Assembly: GCA_900208305.1 (NCBI GenBank)
Contig: OAPG01000004.1
Span: 434,001 to 498,000, forward strand
Reading direction: 5' to 3'
DNA: 64,000 bases
Origin: Melanopsichium pennsylvanicum
Lineage: Eukaryota; Basidiomycota; Ustilaginomycetes; Ustilaginales
Part shown: piece after piece, positions 28,721 to 45,503 of the stretch
How positions within the stretch are numbered: the first letter of the stretch is position 1
Layout: each line of letters opens with the position of its first letter
Program-made: the position numbers and the translations under genes
Notes under the pieces: model-generated
The model's database searches: none
What the model was told of the DNA's origin: nothing
The model's input: the letters and a program-made list of their open reading frames with translations, nothing else

Positions 28721-31032
28721 TCATTTCGATTCGGTTTCAACCAAATGAAAACTTTCCCTTACCAAATCAACAATCTCCTTCCAATCCAACATTGCACCCA
28801 TCCCCACATCACCACAAGCCAAAACTTTACTAACCGGACCTAAAATTCGATAACCCAAAACCTGATCTATCACCCTCAAATGATGTGTAGTTAAAGGATG
28901 TAACCACATTAACGTGTTCATAGCTGGAAAGATCCAAACCTTGTCACCCAAACCCAAAGCTCTCAAATAACTCGTCAAAACATCATCGCACAATCCACCC
29001 GCCAACTTGGCAATCGTATTGGCAGAAGCGGGTGCAATCAATGTCAAATCCGCCCAACGTCTCAGTTCGATATGTAAAATCGAATCCCCCACCTTTTCAA
29101 AACTACTCCATTCGTCCAAATTCGTCCACAAATGAACTCGTGGAAGTACCAAATTCGAATCCAAACTTTGAAAACCTCGTCGATTCTCATCTGCTAAATT
29201 TTTCACCCCATACACCTTACCATCCAAAGAATCGTGGTTAGAAGAACACGTGTACTTTTTGTTCAGTTCCGAAATCAATCCTCGATCGTAAAAATGTAAA
29301 GAATGATCGGTAGCAATAACCATAATCCGAACATTGTCAAATTTTAACAATCCTTCAACAATCAATGGTATCTTGACGCTTGCAACACTCCCAGTACAAC
29401 CCAAAACCACGTGCAAAGGTCGATCCTTGGTAGGTGGCATCGTCAAACGTGGATACGCTGAACGTAGAGATGTTGCAAGTTCTTCTTGTCCCGCCGAATC
29501 CTTATCTTGGATCATCGTAGTGGTGTTGGTAGAATTGGTTCGTGGCGCAGTGATTCGATTGAGCTGTGCAGCAAGGTAAGATGAAGTGGTGGTTCGAGTG
29601 GTTGAAGACAATTTGGATGGAGCAGGTGCACCTGCCACTTGTCTCGAGTCCGTCCGAGGCATGACCATGCAAGAGGATGCAGAGCTACTACTACTACAAT
29701 TACTAATCGCGCCATCGTTTGGCACTCCAAGTCCGAGCGAGGATGAAGGAGACGAAGAGAGAGCCGAAGCACCAAGTCTGCCTAGTTGGGCCAACCGATC
29801 TCCAATGCTAAGTTTGTTCTCGCTGGTGGTCGTCGTGATAGAAATGTCTTGTTCCCTGACGTGCTCCTCGGTGCGAGAATAGTCGGTTGACACTGTTGCG
29901 CTCGATGAGGTTCTGCAGCGCGTCGAGGGGTTGCAACGAGCGCGGTCAGCATTCTGCATTGAGCCACCGTGAGTGGCGCTGCTGTGTGAAGATGCGGTGC
30001 TTTCCGTGCGCCTTGGTCCGCTTAAATCGGCCAGACTCGCATCTCCGGTATTGGAACCAGCGTAGGTATTTACGCCCATCATCCTACTAAATGCTGACAG
30101 ACCCGATCCCATCACCCCTGTAATCACCTTGTTGCTCGCTCCCGCCAAATCTCCAATCTCCTGCGTCAACCTTCCTCGGATACGCTCCGGCATCGCCAAA
30201 CCGACGGCTGACTGCCCATCACTGTGCGCAAATGAATCGAGCCGTCCTCTCTCTACCATATTGCCACCAATGCGAGCTGTTTGCTCAACATCACCATCAC
30301 TACCACTCACCCTCAGATGCGCACCGATTTGGCTCGAATCCAACCCAAGATCTTTCACGTCCACCTTCTCCAGAAACGCTACAGCCGCCTGAACGTTGAC
30401 CAAGCAATACGACGTTTCGCCTGCTACCAAGCTCTCGGCGCGAAAGCGCTGGATGTACACCAAATTGCTCGCCAATCTCGATGGATTTGACGAAATAATG
30501 CTGTAGATGAGAATGGGCAGGATGAGATCCGCACTTGTCGGTTCGCGCCATGTGTTGGATGATGTGATGGGCATTGTTTCTGACTCGGTCTCTGTATTGT
30601 CGTCGCGCATCTTGATTTTGGGCAGCTTTGCTACGCCGTCGACTGCGATCTTGTGCGCGCGCACCAAAACTTCGAGCTTGGCCTTTGGTGATCGACGTGA
30701 TGCACTTTCCAGCTGCTGAAGCTCCTTTCCGCACCTTTGCACAATCCGCTCCAGCCCGTCCAAAAGCGCATTACTTTGATTCGATTCTTCATTTGGTTGC
30801 TCCGCTCGTTCCACCGGCACGTCCAACCCGAGATGGCGCAACGTTACACCGAGTAAGTTCAAAGCTGCAATGCGAGATGCCAACGCATCATCGTGATACC
30901 CATCACGAGATGTGGTGGGACAGAATATGCGATCGTACACTTCCTCGCATACCACACTTTCGATCGCCTCGAGTTGCTGTTCGATGCGGTCGTGCTGATT
31001 GCGTTGCGAGCTAAATTCAGATTCGTTCTTCT

Positions 31033-31064
<32 letters not shown>

Positions 31065-33136
31065 GATTTCGACGAGTCTGCTTTGTAGAGCTCATCACGA
31101 ATGCTATTGAAAAAATCCTGAAAGTTGTCCGACATGTCATCCGGGTCAGCCATGTACCGAGGGTTGACAATGTTGATGGGTGAGCTTGCTCGAGGTCGAG
31201 TAATGCTACTGTTTGAGCGTGATTCGGCTCCTGCTCCTCCCGCCGAAGCATCGTTGAGCGTTGGAACAGGTGGAAGGTAGGTAGCGGCAAAAGTGGCAAC
31301 CACCTCGGAGATGGAGCTGTCGATGCCGAACGCAGCAAGTCTGATCTTGACGCGAGCGTCGAGGGTTTTTCGGATTGAGCGCATGACGGCTGATCGGCGA
31401 ACAAGGTGGTCGACGACCCACACGGAGATGGTCCTGCGCGATCGATCTGTATCGACGGTCGAGCTGCCGGGCTGTGTGGTTGATTCGTTGACACTCGCTG
31501 CATCCGCTTGCTTGGTGTCCTCGCGCAGATCGAGGCCAACGCTGGACGGCGACTGTGCACCACTATCCACTTGCGACATTTCTGCCAAAGATAAATTGGA
31601 TCGAGCATCGAGGTAAGCAGCATTAAGCGAAAGAGCTTGCGCGTCGACCATCTCGCAGCCTACCATGTCTGCCGCTGCCTGTGTTTTGCGCTCTCGTCCG
31701 CTACCTCCAAAGATGCTTGCGAACGAAGCCGAGGCTTTCGAGCCGGCGGCGTTGAGTTTCGAGTTGGAGCGCATCCTGTTGCTGTCATCCGACGGATTGT
31801 TATGCGTGATTGCTCGAAAATTGAGCGGTGGTGGCAAGGGAAATTGTGCATGAGAAGCGGAGAGAGTGAAGCTTGGATATCTACAACTCGAATTGTTGGG
31901 TGAAGTTACGACGGGAAGCGGTGCTAGACCTTGGAAAACCTCTTGTCTCGAGCTGGCATGTTTGAGGTTGGATACGCAAGTTTGGGATGATGCTACGATA
32001 AAGGATTGCAACGTCAAATCGAATCGGTCGGAGCTGTTGTATTCATCTCGCACTGTTGAGCTCGTTGCGGTAGTTTGCCGAACCAGATTGCCGCGCAAGC
32101 CGGACAATGTCAAGATCTGAAGAGCGGATGAAGTATCGGTGGAGGCGTGTGCGGGCAGAGCAGCAGGAGCAGGGTGCGCAGCAGAGGCAGGAGAAGCGTT
32201 AAAGATGGTGTGGTCGTAAGCAAACGATGCACTGAGTTGTGATGCCAAAGTGAACACGGAAGGAGGATCGCGCGGCAGCAGCAGGGTAGCGTCTCGGTTG
32301 ACGAGTAGATCTGCCACTGCAGCCCATTCGCCTTGAGTTGCAGCCTGCAATGCTTCTAGAATGAGCCAGCCAGCACTTTTTTCGGTGAGACCCAATTTTC
32401 GGGCTTGGTCTTGCATCTGTTTGAGTTGCATTTGTGCGATTGTAACCCGAGCAGAGTCGGGTTGGGATGAGCGCATGGTGCGTGTTGCTGAGCTATCGCG
32501 CGGCGAAATAACGTCGGGGAGCGAGATTGTGGGATAAGAAGGTGAAGAGCTGATGTAAGAGGTTGCGGTTAGAGGCGAGGCACGCGATGGAATACGGCTA
32601 GCGGTTTGATTGGGGTTTGACAAAAGCTGAGAAGATGATGCTGAGCTTGATGAGACCAAAGGCGAGTGTTGCTGCTGATTGAAATGTGACGAGTGAGATT
32701 GAAAGATGGATGCAGCATTGGGACGGAGCACCGAGTTGCGTTGGCGAGGCGCATAATTAAGGCTGTGGTATGTGCGCGAAGTTGATAACGGCGTGGTAGG
32801 AGTGGAAGGGGCAGAGGAGGCAGGGGATTCGTAGCCATTGTTTGATTCGTAGCCATTGTTTGACTGGTCATTCAAATTCACATTCGAGCTCTCAAATGTG
32901 CGATTGGCGTCGTTGGCAAAATTGGGTCTGATGGTGTTGCTGTACCATTCTGCCCTATCTGTGGCTTCTAGCCTTGTGATTGGGAAGCGCGGTGAAGTAG
33001 TTTGAGAGGATGTGGTGGAGCCTTGGTATGACGAGCTTTTCGACCTAGTTGAGCTGGAGTTAGGGTTCAATGAGTCGCTGGGTGTTTGCTGAATACCTGA
33101 CATGTCTGTGGCAGCCTGCTTGACGAGGGTGATCAC
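28721..33136 (-). CDS. VPS9-domain protein fused to a Hal3/PPCDC flavoprotein
   Basis: One uninterrupted frame encodes 1471 residues. The first 200 are Ser/Asn-rich. A helical region (residues 565-630) and a VPS9-like region follow: residues 715-770, and the hallmark segment at about 865-930 with PTSADLILPILIYSIISSNP, SNLVYIQRFR, GETSYCLVNVQAAVAFLEKV. VPS9 domains are exchange factors for Rab5-type GTPases. The last 240 residues (from about 1230) are a complete HFCD flavoprotein: HVVLGCTGSVASVKIP, LHIELRRWADLTLIAPASAN with the active-site histidine, FPAMNTLMW, and LACGDVGMGAML with the catalytic cysteine. This is the Hal3/Cab3 family: phosphopantothenoylcysteine decarboxylase in CoA synthesis, or inhibitor of Ppz phosphatases. 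A polyglutamine run is near 31040. Starts at 33136 or 33103 are both possible. It is convergent with CRY-DASH by 31 bases. Confidence 0.9.
31038..31064 (-). repeat. CAG repeat encoding polyglutamine
   Basis: Nine glutamine codons in a row on the minus strand, inside the VPS9-Hal3 protein between its helical and VPS9-like regions. Confidence 0.9.
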
Positions 33137-42605: not shown

Positions 42606-45503
42606 ATGTCGAGACTCGCACATACCACGTCGACTCGACCACTTGTGGCGGCTCGCTCGCTATTGCATATTGGTCGCTCCACTGCATCTGCAGCGCAGGT
42701 ATCTACACCTCGACTCATAAATGCGTCTCTTTCACGCATATCCAATCCTCTGACCGCTTCGTCTCGCCCAGCTAGCCATGGCGCTTCGTCCAAAGCCCGG
42801 TATGACGTCTCGGCTGCGTCATCTTCGACTCGCACCCTGGTCACTTCCACATCTTTGCCTAGCTCATCGGACCAAGTGGATTCCGATATTGTCATAATAG
42901 GTGGCGGCGTCGTCGGCCTCGGTCTCGCCTGCGATCTGGTTGCCTCACACTCTGTCTCGTCATCCTCTGACGCTCAGCCAATCACCTTGATCGAAGCCTC
43001 GGACCTGACTCGTCTTCGCTCCTGGAACTCCGACCGTGCTGCACACCTTTCTTCCACCAACGCTGCCTCCTCTTCATCTTCCACCAACATCATCTCGGAC
43101 GGCCTTGATTGGGAGAACCGGGTCATCTCGCTCACTTCTGAAAACTTGAATTGGCTCAAACGGATCGGTGTTTACCCGTACCTGGTGGAGCACCGACTTC
43201 GGCCAATCACCTCTATGCGCGTATGGGACGGTCTTTCTGGAGCTCTTTTGGACTTTGACTCATCCGACCTCGCTTCCCCAAACACCTCGTCATCATCTCA
43301 AATCTCAGTCATGGTCGAGATCTCAAATCTTCAACAAGCCATGCTCTCTTACCTTGAACATGGACCTGGCAAACGCATCGTTACCATCCTAGACAATGCA
43401 AAGGTAGATTCCATCATTCCTCAATCAAAGGTGGACCACCATTCCACTGAGTCGATCGAACAAGACCCTTGGCCGCTGCTACAGCTCTCTACAGGCACTG
43501 CGGTGCAAGCTCGACTGTTGGTGGGCGCAGATGGACCAAACAGCCCGGTGAGAAAGTATGCCGGCATCGGCAATTATGGGTGGCCCTACGATCGACATGG
43601 GTTGGTTGCGACGTTGAGGTGTAAAGGTCTGGAGAGCGGTGAGCCGAAAGTGGATCATTCCGCATATCAGAGATTCTTGCCAAGTGGGACGATTGCGTTT
43701 TTGCCTTTGTCCGATAGATCAGCATCAATGGTATGGACTCTCGCCCCCCAAGTCGCGGCTGCTTTAACGCAGTTGCACAAGGATACACTGGGGAGTGTCG
43801 AAGAGCCATTGGCACGCATGATCGATGCTGCCTTCCGCTTACCTTGGAGTTATATCGACAGGTTGTTCGAGAGGGTGGTTGCCTTTACCAAACATCCACT
43901 GCCTCAAGGTGAAAAGAGAAACTGGAGCTGGTTGGACTCGGAAATTCCAACCGAGGCAGAGTGGGTGGAGCGTGGCTTGGGTGGGCCTTTACCGGAAAGC
44001 GGGACCGGAGAGGTGCCACCCAAGATTTTAAGTGTGGATGCAAATAGTGTCGCTGCATTTCCTCTGAATCTCAAGCATGCTGATGCGTACCTAGGTGCGA
44101 GTCTCAACGGCTCGAGTTTGCTCCCATCTGGTCTGCTTGCGGGAGCAATGGCTGCAGTGGGATTTGCTGCAGAAGGCGCAGGTCAAGGATCTGGACGAGG
44201 TCGAACGGTTCTCGTCGGTGATGCGGCTCATACGATCCATCCTCTGGCTGGACAGGGCTTGAATCTTGGCATCGCAGACGTTAGGTCGTTGAGTGGCACA
44301 CTCAAGCAAGCGTTGGGAGCCGGTGCGGATGTGGGCAGCTACAACGCATTGAAGGGTTACGCAAGGGAAAGGTATTGGGAGAACCAAAAGATGTTGTCTG
44401 CCGTGGATCACTTGCATTGGGTGTTTGCGGCCACGCCGGTACCGATGAGTCAGCAGATGGATGGTGGTAAGGAGCAGAGGGAGAGGGATGGATTGGTCAA
44501 GAGTGCTATCAAGGAGGTGCTGGGTAGAGGAGTGGTTTGGGGTAGGAGTACGGGAATGGAGGTGATCAATGAACTTGGGTTTGTCAAGAATTTTTTCATG
44601 CGACAAGCTGGGTCAACCACAACTACTACTAGCTCAAACACACCTTGGTCGACGTCGAGGCGCCGCTTCTCCACGCAATCGAGGGGTTCGCACACACTTG
44701 GACAATCACCAGCTGCATCGATGATGCTTTGCAACAGGAAGCTCGGTCAGATGAGGCATCACTCTTCTCAAACAGCGAGACGTTTGGCATCCGACGCATA
44801 CACCTCGGCAACGCGAGCAAATTCTTGTGCAGCCACAAGTTGGACTCCATCGCTATCGACGCTGACTTCATCCCAAGTTCGAGCATTGCAAGATATGCTT
44901 AGGGTGGATCACTCTGGAGAGATTGCAGCCAACACGATTTATCAAGGTCAAGCCGACATGTTTGGAGCGCTTGGAGACACCAAGAATCGTGATCTGAGTA
45001 TTGAAATGTGGCAGACGGAGAAGAAGCATTTGGAAGTGATGCGTGCGTTGTTGAGGCAGCACAATGTAAGGCCATCGTTGCTGTTACCGGTTTGGTCTAT
45101 AGCAGGGAGGATTTTGGGAAGTGTAACGGCGTTGATGGGGCCTAGGAGCGCCATGGCTTGCACTGAGGCGGTGGAAAGTGTGATTGGTGAACATTACGAT
45201 GATCAACTTAAGGAGTTAAGATCGATTTTGGAAAAGGAAGGTGTGTTGAAACGAGAAAATGAGTTACCAGAGGAAAGTGGGGTTCAAGAACGAGTCAAAA
45301 ACGAGGAGAAGGAAGGAGAGGACAAAGTTCATCCATCATTGCCATTGCTATCGGATATCATTAAGGAATTTAGGGATGACGAATTGGAACATCTGGATAC
45401 TGCGGTGGAGAACGAGTCGCAACAGGCGGCAGGACATGCATTGTTGAGCGCCGTTATTGCGGCTGGTTGTCGTGGTGCGATTCGAGTAGCTAGTCGTATA
45501 TAG
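42606..45503 (+). CDS. COQ6-COQ7: COQ6-COQ7 fusion: two ubiquinone-synthesis hydroxylases
   Basis: One open frame of 965 residues contains two complete enzymes. Residues 1-85 look like a mitochondrial presequence (MSRLAHTTSTRPLVAARSLL). COQ6, a flavin monooxygenase that hydroxylates ring position C5, spans about 90-671: IVIIGGGVVGLGLACDL, LLVGADGPNSPVRK, and VLVGDAAHTIHPLAGQGLNLG near 535. A Ser/Thr/Arg-rich linker (672-757) includes STSRRRFSTQ. COQ7, the di-iron demethoxyubiquinone hydroxylase, spans about 758-965 with all ligand motifs: DHSGEIAANTIYQGQ, EKKHLEVM, AVESVIGEHYDDQL and DDELEHLDTA. Both act on the matrix face of the inner membrane in the CoQ synthome. An internal ATG at 44721 begins a second presequence-like stretch, so separate COQ7 expression is also possible. 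No stop or splice signal forces a split. Confidence 0.93.
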   Translation: MSRLAHTTSTRPLVAARSLLHIGRSTASAAQVSTPRLINASLSRISNPLTASSRPASHGASSKARYDVSAASSSTRTLVTSTSLPSSSDQVDSDIVIIGGGVVGLGLACDLVASHSVSSSSDAQPITLIEASDLTRLRSWNSDRAAHLSSTNAASSSSSTNIISDGLDWENRVISLTSENLNWLKRIGVYPYLVEHRLRPITSMRVWDGLSGALLDFDSSDLASPNTSSSSQISVMVEISNLQQAMLSYLEHGPGKRIVTILDNAKVDSIIPQSKVDHHSTESIEQDPWPLLQLSTGTAVQARLLVGADGPNSPVRKYAGIGNYGWPYDRHGLVATLRCKGLESGEPKVDHSAYQRFLPSGTIAFLPLSDRSASMVWTLAPQVAAALTQLHKDTLGSVEEPLARMIDAAFRLPWSYIDRLFERVVAFTKHPLPQGEKRNWSWLDSEIPTEAEWVERGLGGPLPESGTGEVPPKILSVDANSVAAFPLNLKHADAYLGASLNGSSLLPSGLLAGAMAAVGFAAEGAGQGSGRGRTVLVGDAAHTIHPLAGQGLNLGIADVRSLSGTLKQALGAGADVGSYNALKGYARERYWENQKMLSAVDHLHWVFAATPVPMSQQMDGGKEQRERDGLVKSAIKEVLGRGVVWGRSTGMEVINELGFVKNFFMRQAGSTTTTTSSNTPWSTSRRRFSTQSRGSHTLGQSPAASMMLCNRKLGQMRHHSSQTARRLASDAYTSATRANSCAATSWTPSLSTLTSSQVRALQDMLRVDHSGEIAANTIYQGQADMFGALGDTKNRDLSIEMWQTEKKHLEVMRALLRQHNVRPSLLLPVWSIAGRILGSVTALMGPRSAMACTEAVESVIGEHYDDQLKELRSILEKEGVLKRENELPEESGVQERVKNEEKEGEDKVHPSLPLLSDIIKEFRDDELEHLDTAVENESQQAAGHALLSAVIAAGCRGAIRVASRI

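Follow-up and report, generated by a model that had tools for sequence, protein, structure and literature searches.

A COQ6-COQ7 fusion gene of smut fungi, probably a mitochondrial tandem precursor with a retained presequence at its joint

The smut fungus Melanopsichium pennsylvanicum encodes the two ubiquinone biosynthesis proteins COQ6 and COQ7 in a single open reading frame, which lies within the 64,000-nucleotide stretch of contig OAPG01000004.1 analyzed here (the window). We consider it probable that this gene is a mitochondrial tandem precursor, the linker of which would be cut by the mitochondrial processing peptidase (MPP) into COQ6 and COQ7. Our preferred reading of the joint, from sequence comparison, is that of a former mitochondrial COQ7 presequence retained inside the fused chain: its end matches the N-terminus of stand-alone Tilletia COQ7, and COQ7 proteins often carry an arginine at position -2 before the probable mature start. 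The features of the gene are collected in Table 1.

Table 1. Features of the COQ6-COQ7 gene, in positions of the window.
Feature	Position	Strand	Remarks
COQ6-linker-COQ7, probable tandem precursor, single ORF	42606..45503	+	965 aa, 103.8 kDa
COQ6 N-terminal presequence (predicted), residues 1-81	42606..42848	+	disordered in model; acid-free and arginine-rich in relatives
COQ6 flavin monooxygenase	42879..44615	+	GxGxxG 42900-42923, DG 43524-43553, GD 44217-44258; ends at FMRQAGS
ATG of FMRQAGS, possible internal start	44598..44600	+	Met in 27/27 fused proteins
Linker, residues 668-763	44607..44894	+	end matches N-terminus of stand-alone Tilletia COQ7
RRRFST, residues 685-690, candidate processing-peptidase site	44658..44675	+	R.[FYL]ST in 19/26
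RHHSS, residues 717-721, candidate processing-peptidase site	44754..44768	+	R.H[SA] in 25/26; model order resumes here
RRLASDAYT, residues 725-733, probable mature COQ7 start	44778..44804	+	L, A, S, D, Y and T near-invariant (24 or 25 of 25 rows)
COQ7 di-iron hydroxylase	44895..45500	+	all ligand motifs

Translation of the frame yields one stop only, the terminal one. An earlier note, made from the DNA letters, had described COQ6 and COQ7 as sharing one uninterrupted 965-codon frame, and this is confirmed by the translation, by the presence of both domains and by 25 further proteins that contain the two. The linker, put at 85 residues in that note, spans 96, starting with AGS (668) and stopping ahead of MLRVDH (764). 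The first half has the GxGxxG, DG and GD motifs of class A flavin monooxygenases of the COQ6/UbiH-UbiI type (GGGVVGLG at residues 99-106, GADGPNSPVR at 307-316 and GDAAHTIHPLAGQG at 538-551) together with their fold: it has matched stretches to 4n9x, the predicted model comes closest to the UbiI fold in the PDB (4k22; TM 0.83 by target length), and the solved relatives of this half are bacterial ubiquinone hydroxylases, that VisC/UbiI protein among them. We judge the completeness of COQ6 from these motifs and the structure, because the Pfam match above cut-off (FAD_binding_3, PF01494; residues 531-589, E = 1.3e-13) is confined to positions 283-338 of the 349 in the profile; another match, to DAO (residues 94-147), stays below its cut-off. 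The second half matches the Pfam COQ7 profile over positions 2-169 of 169 (residues 760-962, E = 8.8e-60) and carries the E / ExxH / E / ExxH ligand motifs of the di-iron hydroxylase (RVDHSGE at 766-772, QTEKKH at 803-808, CTEAVESVIGEHY at 852-864 and DDELEH at 924-929). Human COQ7 (7ssp) is also its best solved relative (E = 6.7e-33). The 50 structure matches listed for the whole-chain model all fall on the COQ6 half, with no COQ7 fold among them.

A single COQ7 match was found in the genome of the window, and therefore this gene must supply COQ7. With the full-length query we detected no second copy of the gene in that genome, the sole other match being a 36-residue stretch (E = 9.8e-4). As in a tandem precursor, two complete mitochondrial proteins are thus encoded in one conserved frame, without separate copies in this genome. 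COQ7 usually partners with COQ9, but neither PF08511 nor TIGR02396 revealed a COQ9 there, whereas COQ4 was found; a divergent or intron-split COQ9 could escape these searches, and the non-detection could be due to loss, divergence, introns or an assembly gap. Elsewhere in the window, on the minus strand at 28721-33103, a 1460-aa ORF combines a VPS9 domain (residues 789-915) with a C-terminal Flavoprotein domain (1231-1451), presumably of the PPCDC/Hal3 type, and is possibly another lineage-specific fusion.

Both domains occur in 26 of the 50 matches to the full-length query, the protein of the window included (matches were scored among the 7993 candidates sharing most words with it), and a 27th protein, P0023, has COQ6 and the linker followed by a broken COQ7. 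The named sources of the fused proteins are Ustilago, Sporisorium, Pseudozyma, Kalmanozyma, Testicularia, Thecaphora and Violaceomyces, with species including U. trichophora, S. scitamineum, S. reilianum, P. hubeiensis and U. hordei. Looked up in the taxonomy with one species per fused genus, and two for Pseudozyma, these sources fall in the Ustilaginales, Urocystidales and Violaceomycetales, three orders of the Ustilaginomycetes. The Exobasidiomycetes have the same enzymes, but as two proteins, in Exobasidium rhododendri (COQ6 P0035, COQ7 P0060), Meira miltonrushii (P0032, P0062) and Sympodiomycopsis kandeliae (P0030, P0073). Stand-alone COQ7 is also found in Tilletia (Exobasidiomycetes) and Malassezia (Malasseziomycetes), for neither of which a COQ6 was among the matches listed. 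The earlier note had proposed a comparison of the joined protein across smuts, and the joined frame is indeed conserved there.

A tree of COQ7 alone, computed by a quick method from 48 rows (26 fused and 22 stand-alone), places all fused proteins on one branch (SH-aLRT 99), from which Violaceomyces (P0027) diverges first, the other 25 being united at SH-aLRT 93. Nine of the 57 rows given, which we take to be mostly Agaricomycetes, lacked the anchor motif and were left out. The simplest reading of these sequences is that the fusion arose once, early in the Ustilaginomycetes. Searching long proteins with the COQ7 half returned 33 matches, 26 of which are the COQ6-COQ7 fusion. The other seven (P0171-P0177, from Marasmius, Phenoliferia, Dimargaris, Trichuris, Mortierella, Hanseniaspora and Gonapodya) were considered as other COQ7 fusions and set aside, being single sequences in which a COQ6 domain was not seen; they probably reflect merged gene models or else unrelated events. 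Broken or fragmentary versions of the COQ6-COQ7 gene model occur in relatives (P0023, P0051, P0052 and P0152). The COQ7 frame of P0023 is lost just before MLRVDHSGE, exactly where P0051 and P0052 begin, and this break point may mark an intron in some species.

No paper describing the fusion was among the literature matches listed, drawn mostly from non-subscription sources, in line with the statement in the earlier note that no standard description was known; four database records (P0002, P0003, P0005 and P0008), however, already bear the name “related to Ubiquinone biosynthesis protein COQ6 and COQ7.”

The position of the join is informative. Stand-alone COQ6 proteins of the nearest relatives (P0028-P0041) stop within about 25 residues of the AGS block, whereas the fused proteins run on from it into the linker. 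The join sits just after the natural COQ6 C-terminus and leads into the putative COQ7 presequence. The methionine of the FMRQAGS block is fixed in all 27 fused proteins, but of 23 stand-alone COQ6 rows examined, 18 could be anchored and only 7 of these have it. At the other end, the R-x-HS...PLASDAY of the linker is also found near the N-terminus of stand-alone COQ7 in four of four cases, namely three Tilletia rows (P0054-P0056) and P0053, which groups with the Tilletia COQ7 rows in the tree. Upstream of R-x-HS the linker contains 0.8% D/E and 12.7% R (1199 residues, 25 rows), closely resembling the 0.2% and 13.0% in the first 60 residues of COQ6 (14 rows). The two controls, an equally S/T-rich insert of COQ6 (13.0% D/E and 6.2% R; 18 rows) and an insert of COQ7 (23.2% and 3.3%; 25 rows), differ from it. 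Downstream of R-x-HS the acidic share of the linker is 7.4%. It is by this composition and by resemblance to a stand-alone N-terminus that the linker is matrix-targeting-like; the amphipathic-helix score is mixed, with the linker below the N-terminus in five of the six proteins scored.

The linkers range from 60 to 125 residues across the 26 fused rows, and most contain sites of the R-2/R-3 type, as would be expected of tandem precursors cut by MPP: R-x-H-[S/A] is present in 25 of 26 and R-x-[F/Y/L]-S-T in 19, that of the window included, leaving seven without the latter; the Violaceomyces linker (P0027) has neither. Matches to R.[FYLH][SA] number 47, against 9.7 expected when each of the 26 linkers is shuffled, but because the fused rows are related, neither the conservation counts nor the shuffle test represent independent events. 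Between residues 672 and 726, only Q715, R717, H719, S720 and S721 are conserved in at least 90% of rows, and R717 and H719 are invariant in all 25 aligned. LASD.YT (727-733) is conserved as well, as are many columns from 743 onward (743-763), where the chain enters the COQ7 fold, and for this reason some of the conserved linker positions may be needed by mature COQ7 itself. When the whole chain is modeled with AlphaFold (mean pLDDT 78.8, pTM 0.67, 72 sequences), two long stretches, residues 1-81 and 676-723, are disordered (pLDDT below 50), as are four short ones elsewhere; at residue 721, immediately behind RHHS, confidence recovers to moderate values (72-76, with 72 in the block 721-730).

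In 20 of the 24 rows measured, the spacing within RxHSSxxxGP-LASD amounts to 10 residues, which fits an octapeptide (R-10) site. Such a reading is a possibility, although the octapeptide differs from the usual octapeptide consensus. Among the COQ7 matches listed (best 120 of 1412, with lengths 0.55-1.75 times the query), a LAS-x-xY-like motif was found in 82 of 118 rows (P0053-P0170), and the residue two places ahead of its L (position -2) is arginine in 38 of 81, the other eight positions tested having arginine in 3 to 21 rows. A cut by MPP plus ICP55 would be expected to leave an arginine at such a -2 place, according to the rule given in an excerpt of PMC8847149; the ICP55 consensus in the same excerpt is F/Y/I/L, and R-x-H-S has His there. 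Taken together, the comparisons indicate that the putative COQ7 presequence within the linker has kept both its composition and its arginine sites.

We weighed several other explanations. That an intron or an error hides two genes, making the joined frame an artefact of gene modeling or assembly, is very improbable. In its favor, models of several relatives are broken in this region, and codon use in the linker is not clearly coding in frame (-0.04 nats/codon, as compared with 0.06 in another frame and 0.15-0.18 in the two enzymes). Codon use alone is no proof that the linker is coding, and it is conservation at the protein level that carries the point. The base-shuffled linker was free of stops in 92 of 5000 trials, but the decisive control is the occurrence of both domains in 25 further proteins. 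The joined frame is not an assembly slip, and the 26 two-domain proteins include those of the five species named above and of Thecaphora, Testicularia and Violaceomyces. A search for consensus intron sites revealed no donor with a fitting branch site in the linker: the only GTRNG donors in 44480-44960, at 44542 and 44548, lie inside conserved COQ6 sequence, and no CTRAY fits them. A polyprotein divided by ribosome skipping (2A) was ruled out, as NPG is absent from the protein of the window.

A stable bifunctional enzyme, which would lose only its first presequence and keep COQ6 and COQ7 joined through the linker as a flexible tether, would be compatible with a linker lacking both a stop and a consensus intron, with the retention of the fusion in 26 proteins and with the membership of both enzymes in the same complex. 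Nevertheless, a tether alone needs neither an acid-free, arginine-rich make-up nor an R-x-H-[SA] in nearly every linker, and this motif is kept while linker length varies; we thus regard a permanently joined enzyme as unlikely. It is also rather doubtful that COQ7 is made, additionally or exclusively, from a transcript beginning inside the end of COQ6, with translation from the methionine of FMRQAGS and the linker acting as a normal presequence. The fixation of this methionine in the fused proteins and its lower incidence in stand-alone COQ6, the presequence-like peptide that follows it and the P0051 and P0052 models, which hold COQ7 alone, could all be read in this way. Yet the methionine belongs to FMRQAGS, a block unchanged at every residue in 25 of 25 rows, its start context is weak (TTTTTTC-ATG-C), and 31 ATGs, in any frame, lie between the main start and this one. 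Furthermore, synthesis of COQ6 would still require the full chain, and P0051 and P0052 look like model fragments, because they begin at MLRVDHSGE with no presequence ahead of it.

The tandem-precursor reading, which we favor, would proceed as follows. The COQ6 presequence would bring the whole chain into the matrix, where MPP would remove it and then cut the unfolded linker at RR(R/S)-FST and/or R-x-HSS, and trimming would give the COQ6 and COQ7 products. The predicted masses are 65.4 kDa for COQ6, 26.1 or 27.2 kDa for COQ7 starting at ASDAYT or HSS, 30.6 kDa for COQ7 if the chain were cut only before FST, and 95.9 kDa for the uncut chain. Cleavage, its exact sites and any selective advantage are what we infer. 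Against this reading count the seven linkers that lack R-x-[F/Y/L]-S-T, the Violaceomyces linker with neither motif on the first-diverging branch, the His in R-x-H-S and the mostly lower helix scores of the linker. The benefit would be that two members of the CoQ-synthesis complex are made in a fixed 1:1 ratio and imported together, and not that they stay linked. The earlier note had suggested that a covalent link could channel intermediates or fix a 1:1 ratio of the enzymes; the latter survives, as 1:1 synthesis, even if the chain is split, but channeling is weakened, because a conserved presequence-like stretch with candidate processing-peptidase sites lies between the two enzymes. COQ6 and COQ7 are members of the same synthesis complex, and the COQ3, COQ4 and COQ5 steps fall between them; with other enzymes acting in between, direct channeling is unlikely. 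COQ6 acts at C-5 and COQ7 at C-6 (excerpts of PMC5069965 and PMC11509934).

Comparable systems are known. Natural mitochondrial tandem precursors named in the excerpted part of PMC8847149 are Arg5,6, Atp25, Etp1, Rsm22-Cox11, one unnamed fission-yeast protein and rice RPS14. Like Arg5,6 of yeast, which is cut internally by MPP (excerpts of PMC8835746 and PMC8847149), the smut gene has a single ORF for two enzymes that share a mitochondrial pathway; the enzymes are different, however, and the internal cut was demonstrated for Arg5,6, whereas in smuts it is predicted. Rsm22-Cox11 of S. pombe, cut after import (excerpt of PMC12375894), is likewise a lineage-specific fungal fusion of two mitochondrial proteins, but its parts serve the mitoribosome and cytochrome oxidase, while both smut parts serve CoQ synthesis and their split is again predicted. 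In engineered MPP-cut polyproteins, an arginine before FST or FHT is an efficient short site, FST being an efficient P1'-P3' set (excerpt of PMC10450427), and the smut linker similarly has arginines followed by F-S-T (R-R-R-F-S-T in the window). Those polyproteins are artificial, whereas the smut linker resembles the relic of a natural presequence.

Overall, what reads as a new fused bifunctional enzyme should probably become a self-dividing mitochondrial precursor, of a small known kind. We find the arguments evenly balanced for the wider proposal that, in a fungal lineage comprising at least three orders, COQ6 and COQ7 both come from such a precursor, in which the end of COQ6 was joined to an intact COQ7 import tag and the tag was turned from an import signal into an internal cutting site and kept as such. 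In the smut case, three orders of one class have the fusion, related classes still show the unfused state, and a stand-alone presequence is available for alignment with the linker at the level of single residues. This suggests how a fusion of two import-dependent genes could be nearly neutral at birth, since the inner tag would still be cut, and could then be retained for the balanced supply of two enzymes of one complex. A “fused enzyme” in a database need not equal a fused protein in the cell and, if the proposal is true, the smut gene would be a natural counterpart of the engineered MPP polyprotein.
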